Source of the DNA: Phycisphaeraceae bacterium
Lineage (GTDB): Bacteria; Planctomycetota; Phycisphaerae; Phycisphaerales; Phycisphaeraceae
Direction of reading: 5' to 3'
Length of the DNA: 64,000 nucleotides
Assembly: GCA_029260595.1 (NCBI GenBank)
Contig: JAJDCY010000024.1
Location: 372,001 to 436,000 of the forward strand
Below the pieces are notes generated by a model. It was not told the origin of the DNA. It ran no database searches and saw nothing but the letters and a program-made list of their open reading frames with translations. Made by a program: the position numbers and the translations under genes. Within the stretch, counting starts at the first letter, position 1; each line of letters opens with the position of its first letter. Shown here in pieces: positions 52,960 to 63,724 of this stretch.

Positions 52960-55146
52960 TTAATCGGTCGCACGTCGGCGTCGCACAAACGCGGGCGCGA
53001 GCGCAATCAAAACACACCCCGTCGCCGGCTCGGGGATCAGAAAATCGCTGAGCACGATACTGTTGGAATTGAACGGGCTGCCGGCTCCGTAGCTGACGCG
53101 GAACGTCCCGTGGTGACCCGCCGTGTCCAGCCGATTTCCGCTGAGCACATTGGTGAACGCCCCCGCGATCTCGGTGTCCGCCGTAGCGATGACGAAGGTG
53201 TCACTAGCATCTACCAGCGCCTCAAACCCGTCGATCAACGCGATGATCAACTCGCCGCCGATCGCCAGGTCCGCATTCACATCAAGATGATCGTGCTCGG
53301 TCCCCGCCGCGGTTCCGCCGATCTCAAACTCGCTCTGTGCTGTGCCCAGCAGCGTCACGTCGCCGTTGACCGTCAATAGCCCGGCTGACTCACCGACCGA
53401 GAGCGTGTCCGCGATGCTGACCGGCGCGGTCACCACGCCGCTGCCCTCCAGACTCCCGCCCAGGATATCGATCAATGCCATCGCCGTTTCAATAGTCCCA
53501 CCTGAGAGGCGCGTCACACCGCCGGTCTGGGTGTACCCGCCTGGGATGCTCAGCGTCGCGTTGTTCTTGGATTCGATCGTCCCGCCATCCTGGCTAAAGC
53601 CGTGCGGATCGATCGTCATGGTCAACGCGTCGCCCTCTGCGTCCGCTGAAATCGTGCCCTGATTGATGACCTGTCCGACCCCCGGGTCGGAGTGGATCCC
53701 CGCATCCGGGCCGCGCAGGTTCACCGTCGCGCCGGGTCCGAGCGTCAGCGTATTGTTCCCACTGACATCCAACTCAGCCGTCGTGCCGTCAAGATTGATC
53801 GTCGTCGTGTCCAATATCTGAGTGTCCTCGATGATCAACCGTGCGCTGTTGCCGAGGTTCGCGTCCCCTGTAAAGCCCGACCCATTGAGCAGCCGGACGC
53901 GCGCCCCATTGCCCGTATCCAGGTGCAGGTCGCCAAGCACTATTACCCCGTCAAGCCGATTCGTGTTGGCGAACGCAAACGCGAGCACCGCGCCGCCTTC
54001 CTGCGAGACCTCCCCGCCGGTGATCTTGCCCGTCCGCACCGTGTACGTGCCCGTCGCGGCCGTCAGCGCGAGCGTATCGCCGGTGTTGTCAAGGTTGCCC
54101 TGGATGAAGATCCCCGTCGATCCCGATCGCGTGATCACGCCGATGTCAGCCGTCAAAAAGTCGTTGTTCAACTCCATCGTCGAGTCGGTCAGCAGCACCG
54201 TCCCGTCGTTGTCCCAATCACCGTTGAACCGCAGCAGCCCACCGGTCGCCTGGATCGTGCCGCCGGCCTCGTTGACCCACGAACGCCCGGTGCGCCCGAT
54301 CTGTACACGCGCATTCTCGACGGCCGAGACCACGCCGCCTGACGCGTTGGTGAACACGTCCGGGTCGATCGTCATGTTGCGGATATTCCCATCGGCGTCT
54401 GCCGCGATCGTGCCCCGGTTGACCACCTGCCCGTTCCCCCCGAGAAAAAGGTCAGCCGTGATCTGTGCGTTGGCGCCGCGCAGGTTGACCAACGCGTTCG
54501 GCCCCAGCGTCAGCGTGTTGTCGCCGCTGACACCGAAGTCCGAATCATTGCCCTCAAGGTGGATACTTGTGTTGTCGAGCGTGCGCGTGTCGTCGATGAT
54601 CAGTTTCGCACCCGTGCCGAGTGTCGCATCGCCCGTGTACCCGGCACCGTTGATCAGCCGGGCCAGCGGTTCGGTGCCGGTCATCAGGTCGAGCCCGTTC
54701 TGCACCGTCGCCCCGTCGAGAAGATTTGCCGGGTTGCTTGTGAACACCAGACCGCCGCCGTTCTGGTTGACAACCGTGTTCGCGATCGTCCCGCCATCGA
54801 CGCGGTACGTCCCGCCGAGCAGATCCGCCGCGCCTGTTGCGGTAAACGTGCCCGCGGTATGAGCGACCGTGGCTGACGCAGAGTTGAGCGTGAGATCCTC
54901 GATCGCGACGGTCGTATCAAGTGTGACGGTGTAGTCCGGTCCGCCGGCGTCGATCACCGCGTCGAAGGTCTGCCCGCCGTTGTTGGGGAACTGCGGGTTG
55001 CTATCCCAGTTGGCCGGGTTATCCCAATCGCCGTTCGCCGCCGTCCAGGTCGAGGTGATGTCAGCCGCGCGGGCAGCGTGCCCAACAACACCGACGACCA
55101 AGGCACCAACCACCGTCGTCATGAGCCGGTTGTGTTCTCGCCGCAT
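52960..55146 (-). CDS. PEP-CTERM protein with autotransporter-like beta-helix repeats
   Basis: The 728-residue product has a signal peptide (LVVGVVGHAARA), a start like other planctomycete surface proteins (WTAANGDWDNPANWDSN) and a long Gly/Thr/Asn-rich repeat region that should form a beta helix. A module of about 155 residues is duplicated (about 111-270 and 366-520): each has ARLINGAGYTGDATLG or VRLLNGSGFTGDANLG, and NTLTLGP. The part near residue 590-690 (GLLTVNGDVTLLGTAQSEFEI) is like the autotransporter-associated repeat. The end is IPEPATGCVLIALAPAFV and RRRRATD. AGGAGG lies 6 bp before the start. It is likely an exported surface adhesin or structural protein. Confidence 0.88.
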   Translation of the reverse strand: MRREHNRLMTTVVGALVVGVVGHAARAADITSTWTAANGDWDNPANWDSNPQFPNNGGQTFDAVIDAGGPDYTVTLDTTVAIEDLTLNSASATVAHTAGTFTATGAADLLGGTYRVDGGTIANTVVNQNGGGLVFTSNPANLLDGATVQNGLDLMTGTEPLARLINGAGYTGDATLGTGAKLIIDDTRTLDNTSIHLEGNDSDFGVSGDNTLTLGPNALVNLRGANAQITADLFLGGNGQVVNRGTIAADADGNIRNMTIDPDVFTNASGGVVSAVENARVQIGRTGRSWVNEAGGTIQATGGLLRFNGDWDNDGTVLLTDSTMELNNDFLTADIGVITRSGSTGIFIQGNLDNTGDTLALTAATGTYTVRTGKITGGEVSQEGGAVLAFAFANTNRLDGVIVLGDLHLDTGNGARVRLLNGSGFTGDANLGNSARLIIEDTQILDTTTINLDGTTAELDVSGNNTLTLGPGATVNLRGPDAGIHSDPGVGQVINQGTISADAEGDALTMTIDPHGFSQDGGTIESKNNATLSIPGGYTQTGGVTRLSGGTIETAMALIDILGGSLEGSGVVTAPVSIADTLSVGESAGLLTVNGDVTLLGTAQSEFEIGGTAAGTEHDHLDVNADLAIGGELIIALIDGFEALVDASDTFVIATADTEIAGAFTNVLSGNRLDTAGHHGTFRVSYGAGSPFNSNSIVLSDFLIPEPATGCVLIALAPAFVRRRRATD
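53587..54816 (-). repeat. Two diverged in-frame modules of the beta-helix protein
   Basis: Module 1 spans about 54337-54816 and module 2 about 53587-54051. The match is at protein level, through motifs such as NGAGYTGDATLG, II(D/E)DT, (V/L)SG(D/N)NTLTLGP and VNLRG. The DNA copies have diverged. Confidence 0.6.
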
Positions 55147-58361: not shown

Positions 58362-59459
58362 TCAGGACGCCCCCACGGCTGCATCTCGCGGTGCCCATGC
58401 CCGCCGCAGGGCGCCAACCATCCCGGCTGGATCGTCCGCCTGACACACGATGCTGCTGACCGCGACCCCTTGGGCACCGGCTTCGACCGCTTGGGCGATG
58501 TTGCCCGGCGTGATCCCGCCGATGGCCAGGTGGGCGGTGTGGGGGTGCGTCGAGGTGAACTCCCGCACGTACCCAGGCCCGGCGATCAAGGGCTTGTGCT
58601 TCGTGGCGGTCGCGAAGACCGGGCCGACACCGCAGTAATCGGCACCGTCGCGGATCGCCGCTTCGGCCTCACTGAGGTTGGACGTGCTCACCCCGACAAG
58701 CAGCGCCCGCCCGGCGACCCGCCGAATGTCGCCGCATGTCAGATCCTCTTGCCCATCGTGCACGCCATCAGCCGACGCAAGCAGGGCAATATCAGGCCGG
58801 TCATTGATGATCGTGCTAACGCCGCGGGGCTTGCAGTACGCGACAAGTTTGTGCGCACGGCTGAGCAGTTCGCGGTCGCCAAGCGACTTCTCGCGTAGCT
58901 GGATGCAATCGGCCAACGGCTCACCGTCGCGGTCACGTTGCACGACCGCCTCGACGACCCGCCACCAGTCGCCGCCGGGGCACAGCGCTTCACTGATGAT
59001 CACACACACCCGCCACTGCCGCGCACGCCCGGTCGCGAGCGCCCCATCAAGCCGCCGGGTCCACTCATACCCACGGTACCGGATCGCCTCGATCACCGGT
59101 GAAAGTGGCTCGCCGTCGGGTGATTGGCCGCCGACCACCTTGCTGTACTCTTCGAGCACCCGCAACGCCTCACCCAGCCGCTTGCCCGCCGCGGTGGCCA
59201 ACTCGCTGAGCGACCGCGGCTGTGTCTCCTGCGGCGTGCTGATCGTGGTTCCAACGTCCGCCGGTGTATCGCGATTAGCCACACGCGCGTCAAGTGCCGC
59301 CAGCGCGTGTGATAGATCGTGACGCGCTGATTTGATCGCCAGCGCGAGCTCGCGGTCATCAAGCACCAGCCGCGCGGTATCCTCCATCACCCGCAGCGCT
59401 TCGCACGCCCGGTTGGTATTCACATCGACCACGCGATACACGCCGATCCTCGACGACAT
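58362..59459 (-). CDS. thiE: Thiamine phosphate synthase with N-terminal extension
   Basis: ThiE joins the pyrimidine and thiazole parts to thiamine phosphate. Residues 170-355 are the TIM barrel: DCIQLREKSL, STIINDRPDIALLASADGVHDGQEDL, LLVGVSTSNLSEA, YCGVGPVFATATK and AIGGITPGNIAQAVEAGAQGVAVSS. HDGQ replaces the usual HxGQ with no loss of the pattern. The first 155 residues (RVVDVNTNRACEALRVMEDTAR) match the extra domain of the long ThiE of cyanobacteria and planctomycetes. ATG 59459 is the preferred start. No TPP riboswitch lies before this gene. Confidence 0.94.
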   Translation of the reverse strand: MSSRIGVYRVVDVNTNRACEALRVMEDTARLVLDDRELALAIKSARHDLSHALAALDARVANRDTPADVGTTISTPQETQPRSLSELATAAGKRLGEALRVLEEYSKVVGGQSPDGEPLSPVIEAIRYRGYEWTRRLDGALATGRARQWRVCVIISEALCPGGDWWRVVEAVVQRDRDGEPLADCIQLREKSLGDRELLSRAHKLVAYCKPRGVSTIINDRPDIALLASADGVHDGQEDLTCGDIRRVAGRALLVGVSTSNLSEAEAAIRDGADYCGVGPVFATATKHKPLIAGPGYVREFTSTHPHTAHLAIGGITPGNIAQAVEAGAQGVAVSSIVCQADDPAGMVGALRRAWAPRDAAVGAS

Positions 59460-59654
59460 CCTGGGATCCTGTCTATGCACACCAGCCTACCGGATCGTTG
59501 CCGCCACCCGCCGCCCGGAACGGACACCTCGCCGGTAGGGAGCTTCGAGGCCTAGTGATTCGCCCGCACGCGTGATAAACTCACATTCTGGTTCGGCTTT
59601 GGGCTTGCATCCCGAGCGAACCGCCGCAGACACACGCGCAGGATACACGCTGAC

Positions 59655-60413
59655 ATGATAGACACGTTGATCACCGGTTGGACTGATCTCTCACGGATCA
59701 TCACCGCGCAACTGCCCATCACGCAGGAAGCCATCGAGGCCCTGCGCGCGGTCAAGACCAGCCTCCAACGCAGCGAGCGGATCGAGCTGGCGACCTTCCT
59801 GGGCGATCTGTTCTGGGCCGGCCTGCTGTCGGCACTGCTGGGGCTGCTGTACGTCAAGTTCGGCCGGTCGTTGTCCAACCGCCGCCAGTTCGCGTCACAC
59901 TTCGTGCTGATCGCGATGACCACCATGCTGGTGATCACACTCGTCAAGGCGTCGCTCGCGCTGTCATTAGGGTTGGTCGGCGCGCTGTCGATCGTCCGAT
60001 TCCGTACCGCAATCAAGGAGCCGGAGGAGCTGGCATACCTCTTCGTCGCCATCGCGATCGGCCTGGGCTACGGGGCCCATCAGGGCTTAATCACGCTCGC
60101 CGCCGTCGTGGTGATCGCGCTGGTGATCATCGCGCGTGGCCTGTGGTTTCGCGGCGACGACCACAAAACTCTCAACCTGTTGGTGTCGGCGCCGAAGGAA
60201 CTCGGTGTCTCGTTCGAGCAGATCGAGCAGGTGCTCAAGGGCCACTGCCGGTCACTGCGTCTGCGCCGGCTGGATCAATCCGGCGGTGATCTCGAGGCGT
60301 CGTTCCTGGTCGAGTTCGACAAGTTTGACGATTTCAAGAAAAACCGATCCGGGCTGCTCGCCTTGCATGAAAACCTATCGATCAGCTACCTCGACAGCCG
60401 GGGGCTCTCATAA
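59655..60413 (+). CDS. DUF4956 membrane protein
   Basis: The 252-residue product has four or five helices (LFWAGLLSALLGLLYVKFG, HFVLIAMTTMLVITLVK, LGLVGALSIVRFR and VAIAIGLGYGAHQGLITLAAVVV) with the conserved SIVRFRTAIKEPEE loop, then a cytosolic C-terminal domain. DUF4956 proteins are often beside VTC-type polyphosphate polymerases and CotH kinases. The stop codon touches the next start codon (TAATG). Confidence 0.9.
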   Translation: MIDTLITGWTDLSRIITAQLPITQEAIEALRAVKTSLQRSERIELATFLGDLFWAGLLSALLGLLYVKFGRSLSNRRQFASHFVLIAMTTMLVITLVKASLALSLGLVGALSIVRFRTAIKEPEELAYLFVAIAIGLGYGAHQGLITLAAVVVIALVIIARGLWFRGDDHKTLNLLVSAPKELGVSFEQIEQVLKGHCRSLRLRRLDQSGGDLEASFLVEFDKFDDFKKNRSGLLALHENLSISYLDSRGLS

Positions 60414-62995
60414 TGCAGATCCCGACGTCCCGTGGTGGGCGCGGTCGGGGCAAGACGCTGCGGCGGATCGCCGCAAGCCTCGTGGTGTTCCTGCTCCTGC
60501 TGATCATGCTCGCGGGCGCGTTCGGTGCGGGCATGCTCAACCATGAGATCATGACCGACTACTTCCATCCGGCCCGGATGTGGGCCAACCGGTTCAAACG
60601 CCGGGTCGGCAACCCCGCGCGATGGGTTGCCGCGTCGTGGCGGGCGCAGCCGCAGCGTCTGATCCTGGACATCAAGCACCAACACTACGAGAAGCTCGTC
60701 GAGAAGCGGGCCGATGCAATGGAGCTGGGCATCCTCCACGCGGCGCCGGATGACTACGTCTCCGCGACGCTCTCGTACGGCGACGAATCGGTCAAGGTCA
60801 AGGTGCGGCTCAAGGGTGATTGGGTCGATCACCTCGCCGGCAGCAAGTGGTCATTCCGGGTCAAGGTGCGCGGCGACAACACTTTTATGCGGATGAAGCG
60901 CTTCTCGTTGCAGCACCCGGCCACACGCAACTACGCCCACGAGTGGCTGTTCCACCGCGTCCTGCGGCGTGAGGGATTGATCGGTCTGCGATACAAGTTC
61001 GTGGTACTCACCGTCAACGGTAAGGACCTGGGCGTCTACGCCATGGAGGAGCATTTCGAGAAACGACTCATCGAGGAGCAGCACCGGCGGGAGGGCCCGA
61101 TCGTCCGGTTCAACGAAGACCTTTTCTGGGCCGGTACCGGCCAGGATGTCTACCACGCCAGCCACGTGGACGGGTTCAGCATCGAGCGCAGCCTCCGCGA
61201 CGAATCATCCCGCCCGGCGATGGTCAAAGCCGTGTCTTTGCTAACCGCGTTTCAGCGCGGCGAGTTGGATGTCGCCGAGGTATTCGATGTGCCGCAACTC
61301 GCCCGGTACTACGCGCTGTCCGATCTTCTCAGCGCCGAGCACAACATCCACTACCACAACCTGCGCTTCTACTACAACCCCGTCACCTCGCGCCTCGAGC
61401 CGATCGGGTTCGACGCACAGGGCTGGGGCGTTACCGACGAGATCCTCGAGCACACCCAGACCAAAGACCCCACCCGGCCGTTTTTCACCTTTAACCGCCG
61501 GCTCTTCGCCAATCCGATTTTCGTCGCCGCCTATCACCGTGAGCTGCGCCGGGTCTCGCAGCCAAGCTACCTCGACGCGCTCCTGGAGGAACTTCAGGAC
61601 GACCTGGACGAATCACTCGAGATCCTTTACACCGAGTTCCCCGGAGCGTTGTTCACCACCGACTACCTTCGGATAAATCAACAGAACATCCGCCGGACGC
61701 TCGATCCGCCGAAGCTCATCCACGCCTGGTTGGGTGACGCCCCGGCCGGCGACGGCTCGCAGGCGACACTGCGGCTGGCCAACCTTTGCGCACTGACCGT
61801 TGAGGTGTCCGCCCTGGTCCGGGATGATGGCTATGAGACCCCGATCGGACCGCGTGTGTTACTCGGGCGAAAAACGGCCAAAGACCCTCTCGAGTACCAC
61901 GAGATCCACATCCCCCGGCCACCCGACACCGCGAGCGCGCCGCCGCGCGTGCTCGCGCGAGTATTGGGTTTGGAGAAGCAGCACGAAGTCCAAGTGTTTG
62001 TCTGGGCACCCGTCAGCGCGGCGGCCCTGAGGTCGGACACGCTCCGTGCCGACGCCAATGCCGAGAGCTTTGACTTCGTCGACGTAAACCACACCGATCA
62101 CACGATCGACTTGCTCCCCGGGACTTGGGCGGTCAATCGCGACCTGATTTTTCCCGCCGGTTTCGAGGTGCGGGCCGGACCGGGTGTAACGCTTGACCTG
62201 GGTGCCGGCGTCAGCATCATCTCGCGGTCGCCGTTGCGGTGGCGCGGTGACGAGATCAGCCCCGTGACGATCCGGTCGTCGCAGGGGCAAGGCCAGGGGC
62301 TGGTTGTCCTCGGTGCGCAGACGACCAGCATCCTCGAACACGTAAACTTTGAGAACCTCGCAAGCCCGCAGCGCCAGGGGTGGTCGCTACCGGGTGCAGT
62401 AACCTTCTACGAATCTCCTGCCGCCCTGCACCGTTGCCGTTTCGTGGCCAATCGCTCGGAGGACGCGCTGAACATCATCCGAGGCGAAGTTCAGCTTTCG
62501 AATTGCGATTTTGTACGCACGCAGGCCGACGCGCTGGATGCGGACTTCGCCCGGGGCACGATCGATCACTGCCGGTTCATCGAGGCCGGCAACGACGCGA
62601 TCGATGTGTCCGGGTCGGTATTCGATGTCGCCGACGTCGTGATCCGCCGGGCCGGCGACAAAGCCATCAGCGCCGGCGAGAACAGCACCCTCAACCTCCG
62701 CCGCCTGCGAATCACCGATTCGGAGATCGCCATCGCCAGTAAGGACCTTTCGACGGTCAACCTCTGGGAATCTCAGATCATCGACACCACCGTGGGCCTG
62801 GTGGCCTATCAGAAGAAGCCTGAGTTCGGCCCCGGCACGATCGCGGCCCGCGGATTGGAGATGCGCGGCATCGAGCGCACATCCCTGCTCGAGCAAGGCT
62901 CGGCCATCACCATCGACGGCCGCGCGATCCCACCGGGCAAAGACAAAGTCGAGGAGATTCTCTACGGCGCGTTGTACGGCAAAAAATCGGACTAA
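60413..62995 (+). CDS. CotH-kinase protein with C-terminal beta helix
   Basis: The 860-residue product has an N-terminal transmembrane helix (LVVFLLLLIMLAGAFGAGML). The CotH-kinase domain covers about residues 100-430: KWSFRVKVRGDNTFMRMKRF, EWLFHRVLRREGLIGLRYKFVVL, NGKDLGVYAMEEHF and LEPIGFDAQGWG (the Asp expected to bind metal). From about 560 there is a right-handed beta helix (NCDFVRTQADALDADFARGTIDHCRF and related turns). CotH proteins phosphorylate spore coat or surface proteins in other species. It lies between DUF4956 and VTC genes in one operon. Confidence 0.88.
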   Translation: MQIPTSRGGRGRGKTLRRIAASLVVFLLLLIMLAGAFGAGMLNHEIMTDYFHPARMWANRFKRRVGNPARWVAASWRAQPQRLILDIKHQHYEKLVEKRADAMELGILHAAPDDYVSATLSYGDESVKVKVRLKGDWVDHLAGSKWSFRVKVRGDNTFMRMKRFSLQHPATRNYAHEWLFHRVLRREGLIGLRYKFVVLTVNGKDLGVYAMEEHFEKRLIEEQHRREGPIVRFNEDLFWAGTGQDVYHASHVDGFSIERSLRDESSRPAMVKAVSLLTAFQRGELDVAEVFDVPQLARYYALSDLLSAEHNIHYHNLRFYYNPVTSRLEPIGFDAQGWGVTDEILEHTQTKDPTRPFFTFNRRLFANPIFVAAYHRELRRVSQPSYLDALLEELQDDLDESLEILYTEFPGALFTTDYLRINQQNIRRTLDPPKLIHAWLGDAPAGDGSQATLRLANLCALTVEVSALVRDDGYETPIGPRVLLGRKTAKDPLEYHEIHIPRPPDTASAPPRVLARVLGLEKQHEVQVFVWAPVSAAALRSDTLRADANAESFDFVDVNHTDHTIDLLPGTWAVNRDLIFPAGFEVRAGPGVTLDLGAGVSIISRSPLRWRGDEISPVTIRSSQGQGQGLVVLGAQTTSILEHVNFENLASPQRQGWSLPGAVTFYESPAALHRCRFVANRSEDALNIIRGEVQLSNCDFVRTQADALDADFARGTIDHCRFIEAGNDAIDVSGSVFDVADVVIRRAGDKAISAGENSTLNLRRLRITDSEIAIASKDLSTVNLWESQIIDTTVGLVAYQKKPEFGPGTIAARGLEMRGIERTSLLEQGSAITIDGRAIPPGKDKVEEILYGALYGKKSD

Positions 62996-63043
62996 CACCC
63001 AACAGGCCTGCGGGCTTAAGCTGTTGACCGGAGCGCATCAGGA

Positions 63044-63724
63044 GTGACACAGGCGTACCGCTACGAACGTAAGTTCATGACAACGCTCACGCGTCCTGAC
63101 GCTCAGTGCGTGCTGCGTCACCACCCGTCGATGTTCCGGGCGATCTTTCAGCCGCGACAGGTTAACAACATCTATCTCGACGACGCCGCCTGCTCGAATT
63201 ACACGGAGAACGTCGACGGAGCCGCCCAACGCCGCAAGATCAGAGTCCGCTGGTACGGCGATCTGTTCGGATCGATTCATAAGCCCGTTTTGGAGATCAA
63301 ACTCAGGGAGGGCTATCTGGGCCGGAAGGTCTCGTACGCTCTGGCGGGGTTCGAAATGACCGAACGGGCTCCGGGCCCGCTCCTACGCCGGGTGTTCACG
63401 GATTCTTCGCTACCTGATGCGTTGCGGGCGGAGTTAGCTGTCCACGAGCCCCAGCTCGTTAACTCCTACTCCCGTTCGTACGCGCTGTCCGCGGACAGCC
63501 GATTCCGAGCTACGCTCGACTCGGACCTTACCTACTACTCGCGGGGCCAACTCGGAAACAGCCTCCGACACAAACACGCCGACCGCGCGCACCGGATCAT
63601 CGAGTTGAAGTACAGCGCCGCCGATGACCACGACGCGAACCGGGTCTCGGATCATTTCCCGTTTCGGATGACGCGCAGCTCAAAGTATGTGATGGGGCTT
63701 GATACTGTCGGTGCGGTGTCATGA
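63044..63724 (+). CDS. VTC-domain protein, polyphosphate polymerase-like
   Basis: The 226-residue product has the VTC triphosphate-tunnel pattern: YRYERKFMTT, VNNIYLDDAACSNYTENVDG, RKIRVRWYGDLFGS and PVLEIKLREGYLGRK. These residues (RYERKF, R/K pairs and LEIK) bind polyphosphate in yeast Vtc4. It should make or bind polyphosphate in the cytosol, beside the DUF4956 membrane protein. GTG start at 63044 with GGAG upstream. It completes a three-gene operon. Confidence 0.88.
   Translation: MTQAYRYERKFMTTLTRPDAQCVLRHHPSMFRAIFQPRQVNNIYLDDAACSNYTENVDGAAQRRKIRVRWYGDLFGSIHKPVLEIKLREGYLGRKVSYALAGFEMTERAPGPLLRRVFTDSSLPDALRAELAVHEPQLVNSYSRSYALSADSRFRATLDSDLTYYSRGQLGNSLRHKHADRAHRIIELKYSAADDHDANRVSDHFPFRMTRSSKYVMGLDTVGAVS

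Follow-up and report, generated by a model that had tools for sequence, protein, structure and literature searches.

What might a kinase-like fold, a long beta-helix, a membrane protein and a polyphosphate polymerase do together? The question is raised by three genes in a 64,000-nucleotide stretch of DNA from a Phycisphaeraceae bacterium (assembly GCA_029260595.1, contig JAJDCY010000024.1, positions 372,001 to 436,000), referred to here as the window. Genes for a DUF4956 protein, a CotH-like/beta-helix fusion protein and a VTC-type polyphosphate polymerase lie on one strand of the window as a compact operon; the first two overlap by 1 base and the second and third are 48 bases apart. The original prediction, made from the sequence alone, had described genes that overlap or almost touch and had assigned them these families. 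Both points are borne out, the latter by matches to PF16316, PF08757, PF13229 and PF09359. Two features of the fusion protein were unexpected: the exchange of histidine for the catalytic aspartate goes together with the beta-helix, and nowhere is the protein more constrained than in the helix. The cassette probably acts on a cell-surface polymer.

The kinase-like domain and the beta-helix

The N-terminal half of the fusion protein is CotH-like in fold. The Pfam match to PF08757 covers residues 131-400 (E 4.8e-12), and the model overlays B. cereus CotH (5jda) with a VIA Z of 27.2 and a root-mean-square deviation (rmsd) of 3.5. A search of solved structures with the single sequence returned no CotH chain and one chance-level match; a profile built from the alignment does match B. 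cereus CotH. The Bacillus CotH spore-coat kinases (5jda, 5jd9) share the fold over 321 residues, as well as an asparagine and a second aspartate that the fusions mostly keep. The window protein differs from them in its membrane anchor, its beta-helix and a histidine at the position of the catalytic aspartate, D228 of B. subtilis CotH. That enzyme requires both D228 and D251, with D228Q and D251A each reported as inactive (PMC7821199).

When the profile is aligned with B. cereus CotH, His310 of the window protein stands opposite the aspartate that lies 23 residues before the second one. Among 65 aligned fusions, a set that leaves out shortened rows, near-copies, copies of the window (L001, L002, L086) and a copy of L003 (L017), position 310 is His in 61, Glu in 3 and Gln in 1. 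It is never Asp, whereas all 29 non-fusion planctomycete CotH domains carry Asp there. These comparators are the best-scoring PF08757 matches from 30 loci (L116-L145), all planctomycete, with L141 dropped. His310 is also present in 19/19 fusion-type open reading frames (ORFs) outside the alignment, three of which end at a contig edge before the helix and several of which are closely related to one another. A slip in the alignment was considered and rejected, since the stretch from A301 to position 310 is gapless in both groups and the held-out fusions agree.

Three sequences depart from this split. A non-fusion CotH-like ORF, L081:1924-3555 (+), has Ser at the catalytic position, and L132 reads as Ile in the profile alignment of held-out ORFs and as Asp in the comparator alignment. 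The third, L079:2485-4053 (+), is a second CotH-like ORF that lacks a helix, sits between the DUF4956 and fusion genes of its locus and has Pro at position 310. It is without most motif residues and so looks degenerate; it may be decayed, and in the ORF census it overlaps a VTC match.

Other kinase-like residues are largely retained among the 65 fusions: Asn316 in 58, Lys145 in 51 and Asp334, at the position of D251, in 56. The original prediction held that CotH proteins transfer phosphate to proteins and named a missing kinase core, or a missing active-site Lys or Asp, as evidence to the contrary. The core is present, with the Lys-like residue, the Asn and the second Asp mostly kept. With histidine at the catalytic aspartate position, however, ordinary protein kinase activity is doubtful, and on its alignment the fusion is classed as CotH-like rather than as an active CotH kinase. 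Among the papers listed in literature searches, none dealt with a fusion of CotH to a beta-helix or with CotH proteins that lack the catalytic Asp.

The strongest conservation lies in the right-handed beta-helix. The same residue occupies at least 62 of the 65 rows at 17 helix positions and 7 kinase-like-domain positions and nowhere else, and all six positions invariant in 65/65 (D706, D731, S753, G755, E756 and K777) are in the helix. Asp, Glu or Lys accounts for 13 of the 17 near-invariant helix positions. Two peptide patterns served to find loci L006-L085; as one of them, GDK[AG]ISxGE, contains D749, K750, S753, G755 and E756, the conservation of these residues is in part a product of selection. 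In 18 rows found without the patterns, D684, D706, D709, D731, S753, G755, E756 and K777 are each present in 18/18, and the conservation of the helix holds in the held-out fusions as well. A301, N316 and G570 are likewise invariant in these 18 rows, which places the kinase-like domain under some constraint. The beta-rich region between the two domains is poorly conserved, with a mean top-residue frequency of 0.28 against 0.45-0.47 in the flanking domains.

In the model, most of the cluster residues sit on, or beside, a single strand of each coil (684-689, 706-711, 730-733, 750-755, 772-777 and 794-799), suggesting that they line one face of the helix. As the helix is the most conserved part of the protein and rich in Asp, Glu and Lys, this pattern suggests that it holds an active site or binds a metal, and does not just bind passively. 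The original prediction that the helix could bind a surface polymer was therefore an understatement. Its further remark, that a helix behind the kinase is unusual, does not hold: the helix is the rule for this protein group across many phyla. An accidental fusion was also rejected, since the fusion recurs across genomes.

The predicted fold of the helix is nearest to the alginate epimerases AlgG (Z 27.6) and AlgE4 (Z 26.1), with other beta-helix enzymes and tailspikes at Z 22-25. The common element is a right-handed beta-helix of that shape, at 10-11% identity, and a fold shared with AlgG proves no function. The Pfam match to PF13229 (Beta_helix, residues 692-800, E 9.2e-6) scores 25.8 bits against a cut-off of 25.9. 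A stand-alone helix of 535 amino acids, L113:1027-2631 (-), bears nearly the same cluster, with Gln in place of E756. It has Pfam matches to Beta_helix and NosD and none to CotH, and a search of its genome (G603) for VTC gave no match.

Partner proteins, gene order and distribution

The body of the fusion protein is predicted to lie outside the cytoplasm, on the basis of a basic N-terminus followed by a hydrophobic helix. In this arrangement, a single N-terminal helix would anchor both the CotH-like domain and the beta-helix.

The VTC protein is predicted to be a soluble cytosolic domain that has the residues required to make polyphosphate. It has no hydrophobic or predicted transmembrane segment by hydropathy, and PF09359 is the sole family above cut-off. 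A single-sequence search of solved structures found no match; the VTC profile matches the yeast Vtc2 and Vtc4 structures at E about 1e-10, the stretch with E426 not being significant by itself. R67, R69 and E187, which align with R264, R266 and E426 of the catalytic TTM domain of yeast Vtc4, are invariant in 28/28 sequences. Changing these residues impairs Vtc4 (PMC9911596). Because the counterparts are invariant, the window protein is expected from its sequence to be an active polyphosphate polymerase, in keeping with the original statement that VTC domains make polyphosphate. Unlike the eukaryotic complex, the bacterial protein has neither an SPX domain nor a transmembrane part.

The DUF4956 model (pLDDT 88.3) places transmembrane helices first and then strands at residues 172-247. 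A block at residues 103-121, SLGL.GALS..R.R...K, lies in or near the membrane part and is invariant in 48/48 sequences, including Arg115, Arg117 and Lys121. A fold search with the membrane part gave no match; the C-terminal domain alone resembles many ferredoxin-like domains, among them the ACT domain 3ibw (Z 9.2), a likeness of fold class only. A DUF4956 profile found no match among solved structures, and the Pfam match to MgtC is weak (E 0.36) and below its cut-off. SIR_1592 of S. intermedius is likewise described as a membrane protein whose C-terminal domain is of the ACT type (PMC12345266).

The order DUF4956-fusion-VTC is not due to chance. When one genome per species was scanned, 488 pattern matches yielded 438 relatives, the best 80 of which were kept as named loci. 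DUF4956 occurs in 66 of these (59 times immediately upstream) and VTC in 52 (46 times immediately downstream). In 61 loci the sequence extends 800 bases or more to either side, and in 36 of them both genes adjoin the fusion directly. The original prediction had asked whether the fusion always occurs with VTC, and at genome level the answer is positive. Of the 28 loci with no VTC beside the fusion, 14 were checked, and all 13 genomes that hold them carry VTC elsewhere. Among 392 planctomycete genomes, VTC occurs in 27/27 with the fusion lineage versus 76/365 others (Fisher p 1.3e-17, relatedness ignored).

The fusion is spread over many phyla. It is matched in 4 of 301 genomes of the taxonomic order of the window, the window's own included. 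In the three others VTC adjoins the fusion in 3/3 and DUF4956 in two, the third ending at a contig end. Across the phylum, 29 of 392 genomes match, two of them without a fusion (helix only in G603, CotH only in G631). The best 80 relatives include bacteria from Planctomycetota, Bacteroidota, Chloroflexota, Omnitrophota, Myxococcota, Cyanobacteriota and several candidate phyla, and archaea from Methanosarcina, Woesearchaeota and Pacearchaeota. Metagenome bins make up many of them; no such label is given for Methanosarcina sp. 2.H.T.1A.6, the cyanobacterium Prochlorococcus marinus MIT 9314 or Aureispira sp. CCB-QB1. In control searches, Methanosarcina acetivorans matched both CotH and VTC. In a quick, unrooted tree of the kinase-like domain, made without bootstrap and with some long branches, a single branch (SH-aLRT 97) separates the 65 fusions from the 29 non-fusions. 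Phyla are interleaved among the fusions, suggesting transfer. Neither the fusion nor VTC had a match when searched against plasmids. Among the non-fusion planctomycete loci, VTC stands at 5/30 and DUF4956 at 3/30. Asp-type CotH near these genes implies that the trio is wider than the fusion.

Readings of the operon

The operon may encode a membrane-anchored, extracytoplasmic machine that modifies a polymer and is fed by, or coupled to, polyphosphate. We give this reading, the best of those considered, a probability of about 0.4, with its chemistry inferred. VTC would make polyphosphate from ATP inside the cell, DUF4956 would serve as its membrane partner through docking, gating or passage, and the fusion protein would act on a surface polymer through the groove of its helix. 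The helix would be the polymer-handling and probably catalytic site, with stacked Asp residues for a metal (calcium, for example) and with lysines, comparable to the grooves of lyases and epimerases. The CotH-like domain would transfer phosphate or a nucleotide, or simply bind a nucleotide, to modify or regulate the polymer. A gene order kept in distant phyla, the association with VTC, the conservation of the helix, both folds and the VTC residues support this reading, as do the effects of the S. intermedius deletions on Pel and aggregation (given below) and the frequency of glycosyltransferase and nucleotide-sugar genes in the flanks of 22 loci, for which there was no control set. The module bears on phosphate transfer outside the cytoplasm, where ATP is scarce, because it includes a polyphosphate synthase.

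Several observations weigh against this reading. Asp/Lys ladders could equally well have a structural role or bind metal alone. AlgG has a catalytic histidine, which is without a conserved counterpart here: His occupies at most 21 of the 65 rows in any column of the helix, and the conserved cluster consists instead of Asp and Lys. VTC is missing beside the fusion in 28 of the 80 loci, mainly in Bacteroidota, and no surface-polysaccharide genes stand immediately beside the window's own operon. The S. intermedius counterpart adds further cautions. In the available text of PMC12345266, Pel is still made in all three accessory mutants, no change is reported on deletion of the polyphosphate polymerase SIR_1593, and the CotH protein carries FN3 rather than a beta-helix. 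Given the first two of these, the polyphosphate link may be loose.

The same streptococcal system offers an alternative, in which the operon serves a Pel-type exopolysaccharide cluster as an accessory, the situation in streptococci and clostridia. The original prediction noted that the gene order fits known neighbourhoods, and indeed CotH, polyphosphate polymerase and DUF4956 occur together as accessory genes of Gram-positive pel clusters (PMC7112168). SIR_1592-SIR_1593-SIR_1594 of S. intermedius resembles the window operon in having the three families side by side and a secreted CotH protein; the streptococcal trio sits in a Pel cluster. Loss of SIR_1592 (DUF4956/MgtC-type) raises Pel and loss of SIR_1594 (CotH) lowers it, and either loss reduces aggregation by more than 50% in 10% ASM (PMC12345266). 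The window protein differs in its beta-helix and in the His at the catalytic Asp position. Moreover, a search for PelG (PF16933), the one pel gene sought, found it in 0 of 31 fusion genomes, the window's own included; the search works, as the control genome set gave one match. The cassette is thus not tied to Pel, and a role as Pel accessory is disfavoured and highly improbable. The authors of PMC12345266 stated in 2025 that they failed to find the arrangement outside the Pel locus, and the fusion loci are a counterexample to that statement. The supposed Pel accessory trio thereby becomes a general, often transferred envelope module.

Another alternative takes the CotH domain for a pseudokinase scaffold and the beta-helix for the working enzyme, a polysaccharide lyase or epimerase. 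The loss of the catalytic Asp, the confinement of all fully invariant positions to the helix, and the stand-alone helix with its similar cluster in a genome without a VTC match all agree with it. In the rows found without the patterns, however, N316 is kept in 18/18 and D334 in 16/18, which is unusual for a dead scaffold, and we regard this explanation as rather unlikely. The converse proposal is an ordinary extracytoplasmic protein kinase, with His310 as general base, that phosphorylates surface proteins held by the helix. The CotH fold and the Asn, second Asp and Lys are indeed kept, and His, or Glu in the three exceptions, could act as a base. The inactivity of B. subtilis D228Q, the absence of Asp from every fusion as against its presence in every non-fusion domain, and an Asn or Glu aligned with D251 in 9/65 rows all argue against it. 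ATP is, in addition, normally lacking outside the cytoplasm. Such a kinase appears unlikely.

Under a phosphate storage or homeostasis model, VTC would make an internal store, with DUF4956 and CotH as mere regulators. The intact VTC residues and the weak likeness of DUF4956 to MgtC are in keeping with it, but an anchored extracytoplasmic fusion whose helix is its most conserved part is left unexplained, and we consider the model very unlikely. A bolder extension of the polymer-modifying machine, to which we attach little probability, is a Pel-independent system of Bacteria and Archaea that exports polyphosphate for extracellular use. VTC and DUF4956 would form a minimal synthase/translocase. 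The His-type CotH would add phosphate or polyphosphate to a surface polymer with polyphosphate rather than ATP as donor, or would carry out some other transfer, for instance nucleotidylation; the polymer would be held and processed by the beta-helix, an Asp/Lys enzyme of a new kind. Two enzyme questions follow from these results. One is what chemistry a CotH fold performs with a conserved His for its catalytic Asp; the other is the target of the invariant Asp/Lys cluster in the beta-helix.

Feature coordinates and neighbouring genes

Table 1. Features of the three-gene operon in window coordinates, with the basis of each assignment (residue numbers refer to the encoded protein).
Feature	Position	Strand	Basis
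DUF4956 gene	59655..60413	+	252 amino acids; PF16316 E 3.1e-21, 76.3 bits against a cut-off of 30.6
C-terminal ferredoxin-like (ACT-like) domain of DUF4956, residues 172-247	60168..60395	+	VIA Z about 9-10 over 72-83 residues
CotH-like/beta-helix fusion gene	60413..62995	+	860 amino acids; PF08757, PF13229; AlphaFold mean pLDDT 91.2
Predicted N-terminal membrane anchor, residues 15-42	60455..60538	+	hydropathy 2.83 at 19-37; helix 15-42 in model
CotH kinase-like domain, residues 78-435	60644..61717	+	alignment-profile match to B. cereus CotH 5jd9, E 1.8e-23
His310, position of catalytic Asp (D228 of B. subtilis CotH)	61340..61342	+	profile alignment
Asp334, position of D251 of B. subtilis CotH	61412..61414	+	Asp 56/65, Asn 5, Glu 4
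Middle beta-rich region, residues 436-548	61718..62056	+	strands in model; poorly conserved
Right-handed beta-helix with conserved Asp/Lys cluster, residues 549-845	62057..62947	+	VIA Z 27.6 to AlgG, rmsd 2.7, 277 aligned
Charged cluster D684 D706 D709 D711 D728 D731 D749 K750 S753 E756 K777 D778 K801 K802	62462..62818	+	alignment of relatives
VTC-type polyphosphate polymerase gene	63044..63724	+	226 amino acids, GTG start; PF09359 E 4.7e-18

The genes on both sides run against the trio, which delimits the operon to these three genes: an ORF at 58362-59480, thiamine-phosphate-synthase-like by eye, lies on the opposite strand upstream of DUF4956, and a convergent ORF follows VTC. An NCBIfam scan of the three proteins found no family above cut-off for any of them, and the genome of the window holds one CotH match. 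At other loci, a Pfam scan of 112 of the 159 collected flank ORFs, from 22 loci and with no control set, returned Glyco_trans_1_4 in 11, Glycos_transf_2 in 6 and Epimerase in 6.

Downstream in the window's own genome, the ORF L154:8186-10227 (+) has a Walker-A-like motif and no Pfam match, and the ORF that follows it is nucleotidyltransferase-like by eye. Within the window, a gene at 52960-55146 (-) encodes a repeat-rich, secreted-looking protein of 728 amino acids that has no Pfam match. Its C-terminal end, PEPATGCVLIALAPAFVRRRR, resembles a PEP-CTERM sorting signal.

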